Positions 18,432 through 50,785 of a stretch of DNA of 64,000 bases are shown here, in pieces. The notes beneath the pieces were generated by a model. That model was not told the origin of the DNA and did no database searches. It worked only from the letters and a program-made list of their open reading frames with translations. How positions within the stretch are numbered: the first letter of the stretch is position 1; each line of letters opens with the position of its first letter. The stretch is from Prochlorothrix hollandica PCC 9006 = CALU 1027 (lineage in GTDB: Bacteria > Cyanobacteriota > Cyanobacteriia > Prochlorotrichales > Prochlorotrichaceae), in contig NZ_KB235935.1 of assembly GCF_000332315.1 (NCBI RefSeq), positions 1-64,000 on the forward strand, given 5' to 3'. The translations under genes were made by a program, and so were the position numbers.

Positions 18432-18620
18432 AGTAGCGACTTCAGTCGCTCTGGTTTGGAGTAGCGACTGAAGTCGCTCTGGTTTGGAGTAGCGACTTCA
18501 GTCGCTCTGGTTTGTAGTAGCGACTTCAGTCGCTCTGATCCATAGCTTCCTGGAGGGGAACGACTGAAGTCGTTATTACGAACGTAGCTGTGAAAGGTGA
18601 AGACTGAAGTCACTATTTAG
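18432..18620. repeat. AGCGACTTCAGTCGCT stem-loop cluster (family 6)
   Basis: Four to six copies of a 16-bp perfect palindrome, AGCGACTTCAGTCGCT or its variants (AACGACTTCAGTCGTT type), spaced by TCTGGTTTGTAGT. Related clusters at 37583-37680 and 50757-50785. The region up to the GH9 gene start (18620-18800) holds what looks like a shortened family-4 element (GTTTCAGACTCC ... GGGGCTGAAACG-like ends) and no gene. Confidence 0.75.
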
Positions 18621-18800
18621 GGATCAACGGGCGAACGCGGGTTTCAGACTCCGAAAATTTAGGATCGTTGCACTTCGGGCCATTGTGACCCTCGATCGAA
18701 GGGCTGAAACGCACTAACTTCGTCCCCCCCCTGAATGGTTACGGTTAGGCTAGGGTCAAAATTCGGAATTTGTTTAAGAAATCCTACAAGAAATATCATC

Positions 18801-19823
18801 ATGAGTCCCAATTCCCTGATTCCGGAAATTTATGATTTGACAGTGGAAGATGCCCCGGTTGCCCATCTAAGTGCGCTGCTAGGAGCGACAACCCTAGACG
18901 AAACGACGGCCAACCACAGTCCCCGCGCCCTCCGGGATCGCTACTCGGTACAAGAGGATCAGCCCTTCACCTTTAGGGTGGCAGACCTGCTGGCCAACGA
19001 TCGCGACAGGGATGGGGACAGCTTACGGGTCTTGGATCTGGGTCAGCCCAGCAAGGGGATCCTGGTGGACAACGGCAATGGCACCGTCACCTATACCCCC
19101 AATGCCAATGTTCAGGGGCGCGATCGCCTCACCTACACCATCACCGACGATCGCGGCGGCCAGAGCAGCAGCACCGTTTATTTTGAGATTGCGGCCCTGA
19201 ATGATAGCCCTGCGGCGGGGGATGACACCTACGAGGTTCAGCCCCATCAAGGCTCGGTGTTGCGCATTAACCGACTCTTGGCCAATGATAGCGATCTGGA
19301 TGGGGATCCCCTCACCCTGACCAATTGGAGTAGTCCCCAGTCTGGCAGCATCACCCGGTCGGGGGACACCCTGATCTATACCCCCATCAGTTTTCAAGAC
19401 ACCGACCACTTTACCTATAGTGTCAGTGATGGCCAGGGGGGAAGCGACACCGCCACCGTCTATCTCACCCGTGCGAGCCAGAACAGCGCACCCAAAGCCG
19501 ATCGGGATCAATTTGTTTTAGAGGAAGACCAAACCCTCACCATCCAGAAATCGGAACTGCTGGCTAACGATCGAGATGGGGACGGGGATGCCCTGACGGT
19601 GATCAGTTTTGCCAATCCCCAGCGGGGGGGGCGGCTCACCGACAACGGTAATGGCACCGTCACCTATCGCCCTGGGTCTAATTTCTTTGGGCGAGATTAT
19701 GTGGTCTATACCGTCAGCGACGGGCGAGGGGGGACTGATACGGCGACCATTCGGTTCACCGTCAATCCCGTTAATGATTTGCCCCAGGCAGCGGACGATC
19801 GTTACCAACTCCCAGCCAACTAA
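18801..19823 (+). CDS. Cadherin-like repeat protein, N-terminal part before a premature TAA
   Basis: 340 codons from the ATG at 18801 (MSPNSLIPEIYDL) to a TAA at 19821. It contains three ~90-residue cadherin-like (tandem-95/VCBS-type) repeats with the recurring phrases DxYxVxEDQPxTF, LLANDxDxDGDxL, NGTVTYTP and DxLTYTxxDxxGG. No signal peptide is seen, which is common in type I-secreted or atypically exported adhesins. After the TAA the same frame continues without a gap (AFTFSRFDLLANDRD...) into the 19869-24398 part, so this is the first fifth of one large gene. Alone it could yield a short repeat-only protein. Confidence 0.75.
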   Translation: MSPNSLIPEIYDLTVEDAPVAHLSALLGATTLDETTANHSPRALRDRYSVQEDQPFTFRVADLLANDRDRDGDSLRVLDLGQPSKGILVDNGNGTVTYTPNANVQGRDRLTYTITDDRGGQSSSTVYFEIAALNDSPAAGDDTYEVQPHQGSVLRINRLLANDSDLDGDPLTLTNWSSPQSGSITRSGDTLIYTPISFQDTDHFTYSVSDGQGGSDTATVYLTRASQNSAPKADRDQFVLEEDQTLTIQKSELLANDRDGDGDALTVISFANPQRGGRLTDNGNGTVTYRPGSNFFGRDYVVYTVSDGRGGTDTATIRFTVNPVNDLPQAADDRYQLPAN

Positions 19824-19868
19824 GCCTTCACCTTTAGCCGCTTTGATCTCCTGGCCAATGATAGGGAC

Positions 19869-22800
19869 GTGGAAACGGCCAATTTACGGTTCGAGACCTG
19901 GACCCAGCCCACCGCTGGCAGTCTCATCGACATTGGCAACAATCGCTTTACCTATCAGCCCCATTTAAATTTCAGCGGCAGCGATCGGTTTACCTATACC
20001 GTCAGCGATCGCCAGGGGGGCACCGCCAGCGCCAGCGTCATTTTCACCGTCGAAGCCCCTGATTTGCCCCCCAACCAAGCCCCCGTCGCCGGGGATGATG
20101 CCTACACCCTGCTGGAGGATCAGCCCCTGAGCTTGACCGTGGCCGATCTTTTGGCCAATGACAGCGACCCCAACGGGGATAGCCTCAGCCTCAGTCTCGG
20201 CAGTCCGGCCCAGTTCGGCACGGTGACCCTGGGCAATAATGGCACCCTTATTTATACGCCCCAGTCCAATTTCGTTGGCTCCGATCGCTTCACCTATATC
20301 CTGACGGACGGACGAGGGGGAACCGATACGGGAGAGGTTACCCTAGGGGTGGGGGCTGTCAACGATCGCCCCACCGCCCTCGACGACCTTTATACCCTCA
20401 ACAGCCATGACCCGTTTTCCCTGGACTTTTCTGCCCTCTTGGCTAACGACACGGATCCAGATGGGGATAGCCTCAGCGTCAGCAGTTGGACTCAACCGCA
20501 GTACGGCACCTTGGTTGCTACTGGGGACGGTGGGCTTACTTATACTCCCCCGGCTGATTTTGCCGGGAAAGACCAATTTAGCTATAGCGTTAGCGATGGC
20601 CAGGGGGGAAGCCACAGCGCCAGCGTTAGCCTAGAGGTACCTCCGGTCGTAACGCCCGCGTCTCCGGTGCGGATTTTTGCCGTGACCGATCGCATGATTG
20701 CCCTCAACTTTGAGGTCAACGACATTCAACGCCAGGGCCAAATTCCCTATGAGTTCGCAGCAGGGGATGCGATCGATGCCCAGGGCTGGTTACGGCGCAA
20801 TAACCAAACCATTGGCCGGGTGGTGGGCCGCAACCAAGAGACCCTCTACCTCCTGGATCAATTCACCGCCTACGATCTGGATGTGGCTTGGGCTAGCCAA
20901 ACCGGTAGTTATCGCCTCTCCTCCACGGACGATGCCAGCTTCCAGGGGGGACGGAGTCCCGTGGGGGTGTCCCGGAAAACCAAGATCACCGATTCTGCCC
21001 GCATTGGGTCTTGGGCCTTTGGCTTTCGGAAGGATCACACCCTCTTTTTAGAACTGGATCAACCCCTGACCGAGGGCCAGTCCTATCGCCTCGATCTGCA
21101 AAATGGCAGCATTACCTTTCCCGAGCAAACCTACACCCAACTGGACTTCACCTATGACCCGGCCACGGTGCGCAGTGATGCGGTCCATGTCACCCATTTA
21201 GGCTTTGATCCCGACGATGCCACCAAATATGGCTATCTCTCCATGGGGACAGGGGTCGGCAACGGAGATGCCAATGGCTATGGTCAGTGGCGATCGGAGA
21301 TTCTGGAGATTACGGCCCAGGGTTCCTATGGACAGGCCCAGATTGTCCAAGAGGATGGGGTCGATATCATTGCCTATCGCCTCGATCGATCGGCCTTTGA
21401 AGCCGCCCAACCCAGTCGCATCGGCAGCGATACCCTGACCTACACCATTCAAAACCGCCAAGGGGAGACCTTCAGCGGCACCTTAACCCTTGACATTAAT
21501 TTATTTCAGCAAGCGTTTCAGCCGCTGAAACCCCAGGGGGGCGACTTCAGCACCTGGCAAGAGGAGGGTAAAAACGTCCTCAAGTTCCGGGAAAAAGACC
21601 TGATTAACTACTCAGCCCAGGTGCTGGATTTACCAGTTACCCCCGGCTTTTCCCTGGTGGATGGCATCACCGGAGAAACCGTGTACAGCGGTCGCCTCAC
21701 CCAAGAACAATTACTGGAAGATCCCAACCGTTTTGGACCCAATCGCAATGGCTCTGATGTCTATCGCATGGACTTCAGTGACTTCAATACCCCCGGTACC
21801 TATGCCCTGGTGGTGGAGGGGGTGGGGCGTTCCTATGACTTCACGATCGGGGAAACCGTGTGGGATCAGGCATTCTACACCGCTACGCGAGGGCTGTATC
21901 ACCAACGCAGTGGCATCGCCCTAGAGCAGCCCTATACAGACTGGGAACGTCCGCGATCGCTGCACCCCGATGACGGACTCCAGATCTATGAATCCACGGC
22001 CATGTTGGTCAACACCGGCGAAGGGCTGCTGGGGGGAGAAGATTTTGCCACGGCCCTAACCCAGGGCAACACCGGTATCCCAACCACCCAAGCCTGGGGA
22101 GGCTGGCATGACGCGGGGGACTGGGATCGGCGGATCCAACACACCCAGTCGGTGCGGGAGCTTCTGGAACTGGTGGAACTCAATGCCACCTACTTTGCAG
22201 CAGCGGATCTGAACCTGCCGGAGTCGGACAACCATCTGCCGGATGTCATCGATGAAGCCCTCTGGGGTTTGGACGTGTTCCGGCGCTTACAGCGGGCCGA
22301 TGGAGCCGTGTCGGGGGGAGTGGAAGGGAGCGGTAGCCCCGACTTTGGGGAAGGCAGTTGGCATGAGGATGATCCCTGGTTCACCTATGCCCCCGATCCC
22401 TGGAGTAGCTATGAATATGCCAGTGCGGCGGCCAAGGCGGCCTATGTGCTTCAGACCTATGATCCCACCCTGGCGGCGGTCTACCGGGACAGTGCCCTGA
22501 GGGCCATGGTTTGGGCCGAGGCCAACCCCCTGGCGGTGGGTCAGGATCAGCTCACCGACTCTCGCAACCTGGCGGCGGCTGAACTCTATCGCCTCACGGG
22601 AGATAGTCAGTGGCATGACGTTTTTCTGGAGTCTAGTCTCTACACGGCACCCCGGAGCAACATCAATGACCACCAATATGATGCGGCCTTTGTTTACCTG
22701 ACGACCAATCGCGATCGCAATGGGGACGTGATGGACCAAGCCTATAGCGATCTCCAACGTAACGCCAATCTCTTGGTCAGTGAAAGTAGTCGCTTCGCCT

Positions 22801-24398
22801 TTGGGGAACTGACCGATCGCTGGACTCCCATCGGCTGGGGCGGGGGAGGGATTACCCCCGCTCGTGGCATTAACTTAGCCCGGTTCCATTACCTGAGCGG
22901 AGATCAGGTCTACCGCGATCGTCTCCTGGAAGGGAGCTTATTTGGCCTGGGGTCCAACCCGGATAACCTGACCTTTATGACCGGTTTGGGCCATCAAAGC
23001 CCCAATGATCCCCTGATTGAAGATGTGCGGGCACTGGGGAGCACCCCGCCCCCCGGCATTGGGGTCTATGGCCAATATGACCTCAGCCGCTATGGTTATT
23101 TCTTTGGCATAGGTCTCCACCCCAGCGACATTACGGCCCAGGGCAGTTTACCGGTCAATGAGTCCTACCAAGACTTTTTCTACGATATTCCCCTGACGGA
23201 ATTCACCATTCAACAGAGCGTGACCCCCAATGCCTATGTGTGGGGGTATCTGGCGGCGACGGATGCCAATGCCACCGCTGCCGTGGTGCAGAAACCGACG
23301 GCGATCGTCGATCGCTACAGCATCCAGGAAGACCAACCCCTCCAGATCCGCCCCCAGGATCTCCTGGCCAACGATCGGGATCCCCAGGGGGACAGCCTCA
23401 GCGTCGGGTCCCTGCAACTGGCGGCTTCCTCCCGGGGCCAGCTCAGCGCCGGAGCCGATGGCAGCTACACCTATACCCCCGCTGCTGGTTTCCATGGGGA
23501 GGATTATTTGATCTACAGTGTCAGCGATGGCCAAGGCAATACCGACTACGCCAGGGTTTTGCTGGACATTGCTACGGTGGCCGATGCTCCGGTGGTGGGG
23601 GATGATGCCTTTGCAGTGGTGGGCGATCGGCCCATTAGTTTTGTCCACCTCGCCGATCTCCTGGCCAATGACAGCGACCAAGACGGCGACCCCCTGACCA
23701 TCTTAAGGTTGGGGGATCCCAGCCATGGCAGCCTCAGCCAATCGGCCAGCGGCTTATTGCAATACCAGGCCACAGAAGGGTTTGGGGGCACCGACACCTT
23801 CACCTACACCGTGGGGGACGGCCAGGGCAATGAAACCCAGGGCACCGTTAGCCTCCATGTTACCGATGCCAGCCCCGGTCTCACCTATGGCTACTATCCC
23901 GGTTCCTACAGTGTATTGCCGGACTTCGAGACGATCACACCCCTGACCACAGGGTTCACCCCTGACTTTAGTCTCAGCCCCCGTGAGCAACTCTACCAAT
24001 ACGCCCTACGGTTCCAAGGTTTTGTGGACATTGCCCAAGCTGATACCTATCGCTTTTATACCCGCTCTGATGAGGGCAGCGCCCTGTATATCAACGGTGA
24101 AAAGGTGGTGGATAATGACGGCACCCACACGGTGCAGGAACGCAGCGGCAGTGTCTTTTTAAGCCAGGGGCTGCATCAAATTGTGGTGGACTATTTTCAG
24201 CGCTGGGGCAGTTCGTTGCTGGAGGTGGCCTATGACAGTGGCAGTTTGTCGAAACAAGCCATTCCCACCACGGCCCTTTTCACCCTAGCCCACAGCACCC
24301 TAGCCGACAGCACCCTAGCCACCCTCCCCAACCCCAGTGCCGCCGATCCCCTGGCCTTAGCAGCACCGGAGGTCCTACCCTTGGGATCGGGGATATAG
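19869..24398 (+). CDS. Cadherin-like repeats + GH9 cellulase + PA14 protein (main part of the interrupted gene)
   Basis: 1509 codons in the same frame as 18801-19823. Domains in order: remaining cadherin-like repeats (~residues 1-260); a linker domain (RIFAVTDRMIALNFEVND, ~265-540) as found ahead of some cyanobacterial GH9 enzymes; a CelD-type Ig-like domain (~555-660, TYALVVEGVGRSYDFTI); a GH9 catalytic domain (~665-1130) with the catalytic-base motif GGWHDAGDWDRRI, the substrate-cleft FMTGLGHQSPNDP, and LTEFTIQQSVTPNAYVWGYLA containing the likely general acid Glu; two more cadherin-like repeats (~1140-1330); and a PA14 carbohydrate-binding module (~1340-1460, RFYTRSDEGSALYINGEKV). A role in binding and cutting beta-glucan or cellulose at the cell surface is inferred. 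The only start for this part alone is GTG 19869 within a repeat, with no ribosome site seen. Confidence 0.85.
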   Translation: METANLRFETWTQPTAGSLIDIGNNRFTYQPHLNFSGSDRFTYTVSDRQGGTASASVIFTVEAPDLPPNQAPVAGDDAYTLLEDQPLSLTVADLLANDSDPNGDSLSLSLGSPAQFGTVTLGNNGTLIYTPQSNFVGSDRFTYILTDGRGGTDTGEVTLGVGAVNDRPTALDDLYTLNSHDPFSLDFSALLANDTDPDGDSLSVSSWTQPQYGTLVATGDGGLTYTPPADFAGKDQFSYSVSDGQGGSHSASVSLEVPPVVTPASPVRIFAVTDRMIALNFEVNDIQRQGQIPYEFAAGDAIDAQGWLRRNNQTIGRVVGRNQETLYLLDQFTAYDLDVAWASQTGSYRLSSTDDASFQGGRSPVGVSRKTKITDSARIGSWAFGFRKDHTLFLELDQPLTEGQSYRLDLQNGSITFPEQTYTQLDFTYDPATVRSDAVHVTHLGFDPDDATKYGYLSMGTGVGNGDANGYGQWRSEILEITAQGSYGQAQIVQEDGVDIIAYRLDRSAFEAAQPSRIGSDTLTYTIQNRQGETFSGTLTLDINLFQQAFQPLKPQGGDFSTWQEEGKNVLKFREKDLINYSAQVLDLPVTPGFSLVDGITGETVYSGRLTQEQLLEDPNRFGPNRNGSDVYRMDFSDFNTPGTYALVVEGVGRSYDFTIGETVWDQAFYTATRGLYHQRSGIALEQPYTDWERPRSLHPDDGLQIYESTAMLVNTGEGLLGGEDFATALTQGNTGIPTTQAWGGWHDAGDWDRRIQHTQSVRELLELVELNATYFAAADLNLPESDNHLPDVIDEALWGLDVFRRLQRADGAVSGGVEGSGSPDFGEGSWHEDDPWFTYAPDPWSSYEYASAAAKAAYVLQTYDPTLAAVYRDSALRAMVWAEANPLAVGQDQLTDSRNLAAAELYRLTGDSQWHDVFLESSLYTAPRSNINDHQYDAAFVYLTTNRDRNGDVMDQAYSDLQRNANLLVSESSRFAFGELTDRWTPIGWGGGGITPARGINLARFHYLSGDQVYRDRLLEGSLFGLGSNPDNLTFMTGLGHQSPNDPLIEDVRALGSTPPPGIGVYGQYDLSRYGYFFGIGLHPSDITAQGSLPVNESYQDFFYDIPLTEFTIQQSVTPNAYVWGYLAATDANATAAVVQKPTAIVDRYSIQEDQPLQIRPQDLLANDRDPQGDSLSVGSLQLAASSRGQLSAGADGSYTYTPAAGFHGEDYLIYSVSDGQGNTDYARVLLDIATVADAPVVGDDAFAVVGDRPISFVHLADLLANDSDQDGDPLTILRLGDPSHGSLSQSASGLLQYQATEGFGGTDTFTYTVGDGQGNETQGTVSLHVTDASPGLTYGYYPGSYSVLPDFETITPLTTGFTPDFSLSPREQLYQYALRFQGFVDIAQADTYRFYTRSDEGSALYINGEKVVDNDGTHTVQERSGSVFLSQGLHQIVVDYFQRWGSSLLEVAYDSGSLSKQAIPTTALFTLAHSTLADSTLATLPNPSAADPLALAAPEVLPLGSGI

Positions 24399-31966: not shown

Positions 31967-32512
31967 ATGTCGATTTTGGCCACCACCGATGGACTCACCC
32001 AAACCCTGACTCGACGACAGTTATTTTTGATGGCCGATCGCGAGTTCCACCGCAGCCAACGCCAGGGGAGGGATCTAGCCGTGCTACTGGTGGATATTGA
32101 TCACTTTAAGGGGGTGAACGATACCTAGGGCCATCTCCAGGGGGATCACGTCTTGCAACAGGTGGCCGCCACGCTCCAGGGCAGCGTGCGGCAGATGGAT
32201 TTGGGGGGACGCTATGGGGGAGCAGAATTTAGGGTGATTTTGCCCGAAACCAGGGAAGATCGAGCCATGACTGTGGCGGAATGGATGCGCCTTCAGATCA
32301 ATCAGCTCGAAACTCCCTTAAGTCAGGGAACCCTCCAGACCAGCGTCAACATTACGGTTTATGAGGACTCAGATTCCTGTTTGGATATGGTGATCGATCG
32401 CGCTGACCAAGCCCTATACCCAGTCAAACCTGGGGTCCGGAACCGCTGCTGTTTCCAAGGCTGCCATGGCTCCACCCTCCATAGTTGCCTCGATCGTGGC
32501 CCAGTCCGCTAA
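31967..32512 (+). pseudogene. GGDEF (diguanylate cyclase) domain gene, dead
   Basis: One frame reads LATTDGLTQTLTRRQLFLMA, FHRSQRQGRDLAVLLVDIDH, FKGVNDT, TAG (32126-32128), GHLQGDHVLQQVA, GGRYGGAEFRVILPET and IDRADQALYPVK. It is a GGDEF domain in which the Tyr codon of NDTYGH has become TAG, the signature GGEEF/GGDEF is GGAEF, and the usual SIG..A strand is damaged (VNITVYE). There are thus at least two independent lesions. No sensor domain precedes it; mazG ends 55 bp upstream. A decayed c-di-GMP synthase. Confidence 0.85.
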
Positions 32513-37582: not shown

Positions 37583-37680
37583 CGTAATAACGACTTCAGT
37601 CGTTCCCCTCCCAAAAGCGATCGACCAGAGCGACTGAAGTCGCTACTACAAACCAGAGCGACTGAAGTCGCTACTACTGC
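37583..37680. repeat. ACGACTTCAGTCGT / AGCGACTGAAGTCGCT stem-loops (family 6)
   Basis: Three palindromes: AACGACTTCAGTCGTT followed by two AGCGACTGAAGTCGCT separated by ACTACAAACCAG. Same family as 18432-18620 and 50757-50785. Confidence 0.8.
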
Positions 37681-50756: not shown

Positions 50757-50785
50757 CGTTCGTAATAACGACTTCAGTCGTTCTC
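50757..50785. repeat. AACGACTTCAGTCGTT stem-loop
   Basis: A 16-bp perfect palindrome of family 6, just after the kinase stop codon; could act as a terminator hairpin although no T-run follows. Confidence 0.65.

Follow-up and report, generated by a model that had tools for sequence, protein, structure and literature searches.

The interrupted gene and its domains

The window (the whole 64-kb stretch of DNA analysed) carries a large gene in which tandem-95/cadherin-like repeats are fused to a GH9 domain and a PA14 domain, and whose frame is interrupted once (Table 1). Translation of 18801-24398 covers 1866 codons, residues and stops together, with the terminal stop at 24396-24398 and one internal stop, a TAA that is the sole interruption whether the frame is read from ATG 18801 or from ATG 18735, up to which it stays open; the first part therefore has 340 or 362 residues. 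The TAA lies inside R4, the fourth of eight repeats, and the domain resumes beyond it in the same frame, followed by 1524 codons without a stop or other damage. The preliminary description, made from the letters and their open reading frames, had claimed a single in-frame TAA in an otherwise open frame, a fourth repeat continuing past it without frameshift, and some 1500 downstream codons with intact domains and GH9 motifs. All three are borne out: Pfam detects repeats before and after the stop, together with the CelD N-terminal, GH9 and PA14 domains, reading the stop as X yields eight Pfam repeat stretches as against three plus five without it, and the catalytic Asp and Glu are both present. 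The NCBIfam tandem-95 profile, with a cut-off of 90 bits, scores 241.5 bits on part 1 and 348.6 bits on part 2. Inspection by eye revealed no evident signal peptide at the N-terminus of part 1.

Table 1. Position of the interrupted gene, its parts and motifs, candidate internal starts, and other single-stop genes of the same genome.
Feature	Position	Strand	Remarks
Whole interrupted gene: R1-R6, CelD_N + GH9, R7-R8, PA14	18735..24398	+	start ATG 18801 or ATG 18735
Part 1: R1-R3 and start of R4, terminated by TAA	18801..19823	+	340 aa
In-frame TAA	19821..19823	+	repeat alignment: column is Gln in R1, R3, R5, R7
Part 2: remaining R4, then R5, R6, GH9, R7, R8, PA14	19824..24398	+	1524 codons, stop-free
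GTG, first start-like codon past the stop; ORF-list start of part 2	19869..19871	+	within R4; anti-SD pairing weak (-1.8 kcal/mol)
TTG in R5 behind GGAGG	20133..20135	+	-9.3 kcal/mol; best nearby internal-start candidate of ~20 start-like codons, possibly chance
CelD_N + GH9 catalytic domain	21645..23012	+	Pfam coordinates
DAGDWD, GH9 catalytic-base motif	22110..22127	+	both DAGD Asp invariant, 44/44 sequences
TEF, predicted GH9 catalytic acid Glu	23196..23204	+	invariant in all 43 sequences with a residue there
PA14 domain	23976..24221	+	Pfam
GGDEF gene, in-frame TAG 32126-32128	31967-32446	+	Pfam GGDEF spans the stop, 161/161 profile positions
HAMP histidine kinase, TAA just before HisKA domain	L223:8318-9997 (G000:C9:529173)		Gln column in 14/16 other sequences
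Ferrochelatase-family gene, one in-frame TAA	L204:11756-13168 (G000:C1:472404)		variable column

The interrupted arrangement is more than a chance occurrence, because only two same-frame pairs of long open segments (each of more than 150 codons) divided by a single stop occur in the 64-kb window, the other being the end of the chpX gene and an open frame that overlaps it. After the TAA, 290 codons remain open without an ATG, the longest such post-stop stretch in the 2.08 Mb of the genome surveyed. A paralogue search of the host's own genome found no second copy of the repeat/GH9 gene, a pattern search across the stop gave no match in viral contigs, and literature searches returned nothing specific to this gene.

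The catalytic domain scores 79.3 bits against the GH9 profile, for which the curated cut-off is 27.7, and differs from the family at 11 of 90 near-invariant columns. This is more than in most homologues and fewer than in the other tandem-95 fusion; since the latter departs even further, the substitutions point to divergence of the fused form and not to decay. The full gene product would be a large and probably extracellular GH9 enzyme.

The repeat array and the residue replaced by the stop

Alignment of the repeats with one another places glutamine at the stop column in four of the seven other copies (CAG in R1 and R5, CAA in R3 and R7); R6 has Asp there, and R8 has Arg. The residue is judged from these internal repeats alone, no orthologue carrying the same repeat array having been found among the relatives. 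It was proposed earlier, as one of three alternatives, that the stop arose by a very recent nonsense mutation, for example from CAA to TAA; such a change of a glutamine codon fits well with the glutamine column, the intact frame downstream and the presence of other single-stop genes in the assembly. From the repeat alignment, repeat 4 most likely had a glutamine codon where the TAA now stands, and a one-step change of CAA would suffice.

The presence of eight homologous repeats within one gene could also suggest a phase- or strain-variable allele, from which recombination between repeats deletes the stop. The preliminary description had considered the repeats similar enough for such an event, a suggestion that does not hold at the DNA level: the copies are 60-76% identical, and their longest common exact run is 18 nt. 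A phase-variable allele likewise finds no support, as long identical repeats are lacking, no simple-sequence tract accompanies the TAA and the genome has no other copy of the gene; the probability of this explanation is next to negligible.

Homologues in other cyanobacteria

GH9 matches, weak ones included, were found in 67 of 390 genomes of the class, with a top identity of 51%; all listed relatives share only the class with the host genome. Close GH9 homologues are mostly proteins of about 800 residues without repeats. Two large ones are encoded by single intact frames, namely a 1702-residue protein with GH9 and four PA14 domains (genome G357, L130:5062-10170) and a 2929-residue protein with GH9 and many repeats, tandem-95 among them (G081, L132:7345-16134). 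In these two proteins a signal peptide is not obvious, and they appear to contain the same GH9 enzyme with domain shuffling around it. A TAA in genome G058 (L017) that resembled the break under study was rejected, being the normal end of an 817-residue GH9 gene.

No separate repeat gene was seen 5' of the GH9 gene at the fetched loci, which is a partial test, many of them having only about 1.5 kb of flank. The GH9 homologues are single open frames. A conserved two-gene arrangement, named earlier as what would refute the view of one split gene, was sought among them and, within the limits of these partial flanks, did not turn up.

Other single-stop genes, base errors and decoding of the stop

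The host genome is a draft of 5.65 Mb in 13 contigs, with three tandem pcb-like genes and only four phycobilin-type genes; taken with its size and base composition, this gene content agrees with Prochlorothrix hollandica (PMC5069947), which is very probably the species concerned. A survey covering 37% of the assembly (2.08 Mb, with about 1040 long coding-like segments) sought open segments divided by a single stop whose two halves both show coding-like codon use. Most of the same-frame ORF pairs obtained were rejected as breaks, being ordinary adjacent genes with nearby start codons. Among the genes retained are the HAMP histidine kinase and the ferrochelatase-family gene of Table 1, and an NMT1-like gene at C9:560372 is probably also broken by a TAA. 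The ferrochelatase-family gene is intact in 13 of 19 relatives at about 70-81% identity. Start-like codons lie 10-11 codons past its TAA, and a split but coupled gene is therefore possible in that case. Within the window, the segment at 31967-32446 is, as read from its sequence, a GGDEF-domain pseudogene, in which a TAG stands where the NDxYGH motif normally has its Tyr and the active-site motif is degenerate (GGAEF). The sister assembly of P. hollandica, CALU1027, has been reported to contain 515 pseudogenes among 4294 genes (PMC5069947); together with the single-stop genes of the 2.08 Mb surveyed, this makes a nonsense-broken gene an expected finding in the host genome.

It may be asked whether the TAA is an error of the consensus or of the assembly, the gene itself being intact. 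The draft contains many 100-N gaps, a lone TAA in a ferrochelatase-family gene that most sampled relatives keep intact would be odd if real, and the repeat/GH9 gene shows no decay downstream of its own TAA. Against this, the 64-kb window itself contains no N, lone stops amount to a handful in the long coding-like segments surveyed, and the GGDEF gene combines its stop with a degenerate active site, as expected of a true pseudogene. We regard such an error as unlikely, while giving it more weight than any other alternative to a real mutation.

Alternatively, suppression or programmed recoding could let ribosomes pass the TAA and produce the full 1865-residue protein. Several conserved genes, otherwise intact, do contain a TAA, which in two cases stands in a glutamine column. 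However, no tRNA with a UUA anticodon was identified among the 39 tRNAs found (a few genes escaped detection, 44 being reported for the sister assembly CALU1027; PMC5069947), and TAA is the commonest stop, terminating 465 of the 1040 long coding-like segments surveyed. Moreover, RNA structure 3' of the TAA is no stronger than in shuffled sequences (z = 1.0), and the single-stop cases have no flanking context common to all. Readthrough of this codon is accordingly very improbable. The broader proposal that TAA within several conserved genes, that of the ferrochelatase family included, is usefully decoded, for instance by near-cognate misreading as Gln, so that the full adhesin-cellulase would be made, seems just as far-fetched.

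Initiation downstream of the stop

If an internal start such as TTG 20133 allowed part 2 to be translated separately, the locus would yield two functional products. The anti-SD pairing predicted at this codon is strong, and from R5 onward the domains are complete. Nevertheless, with about 20 start-like codons present, chance alone should supply one such site (-7.0 is attained by 5% of random 17-mers), the GGAGG before the TTG codes for ordinary repeat residues, the first start-like codon beyond the stop, GTG 19869, sits within R4, and a two-product arrangement was seen in no homologue. Taken together, these observations make a functional internal start improbable. Promoter-like sites and terminators showed no excess over shuffled sequences.

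Copies of a short element resembling a palindrome (CGACTGAAGTCG and CGACTTCAGTCG) cluster at positions 18435-18574, 37589-37672 and 50767-50782 of the window, where 12 matches were counted against 0.01 expected; 85 copies are present in the 2.08 Mb of genome. One of the clusters lies directly upstream of the repeat/GH9 gene.

A probable recent nonsense allele and its known relatives

The explanation that we favour, and consider probable, is that of one repeat and GH9 gene carrying a single recent nonsense codon, an ordinary loss-of-function allele. Because several other conserved genes of the genome are similarly broken, an ordinary recent nonsense mutation (or a base-call error) is the natural reading. 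A gene for a large GH9 enzyme built on tandem-95/cadherin-like repeats would have gained a nonsense codon in repeat 4, recently enough for the rest of the frame to show no decay. Translation would then stop in repeat 4 and release a fragment of 340-362 residues without the enzyme, and the enzyme would be lost or made only at a low level through accidental internal initiation or background misreading. The 4572 bases after the stop contain no lesion, which limits neutral divergence since the stop to less than about 0.5% when indels are assumed to arise at one tenth of the rate of substitutions, and to 2% when nonsense changes alone are counted; this lesion-free 4.6 kb is equally compatible with a base error or with a gene still under selection. 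By itself, the likely nonsense allele matters little, unusual though the adhesin-cellulase fusion is. It has some value as a member of a group of several genes broken by single stops in an assembly that is probably the reference for the species, and bears on how real the reported pseudogene load is.

In its catalytic part, the protein resembles known GH9 (PF00759) enzymes with a CelD_N domain (PF02927), sharing the catalytic Asp and Glu and matching in sequence GH9 endoglucanases and cellobiohydrolases of known structure (3x17, 4cj0 and 1clc). Unlike the usual members, it is placed between tandem-95 repeats and PA14, which most cyanobacterial relatives, of about 800 residues, do not have. With the tandem-95 repeat proteins (NF012211; Cadherin_5/Big_9) it shares a repeat unit of about 95 residues, present eight times and bearing the motifs LLANDxDxDGD and YTVSDGxGG, and differs from them in its GH9 domain and in the stop within repeat 4. 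The nonsense-interrupted pseudogenes of draft cyanobacterial genomes (CALU1027, PMC5069947) likewise have one in-frame stop, a conserved frame and further cases in the same genome; in contrast to those, the gene described here keeps a very long intact remainder of 1524 codons, which implies a recent event or an error.
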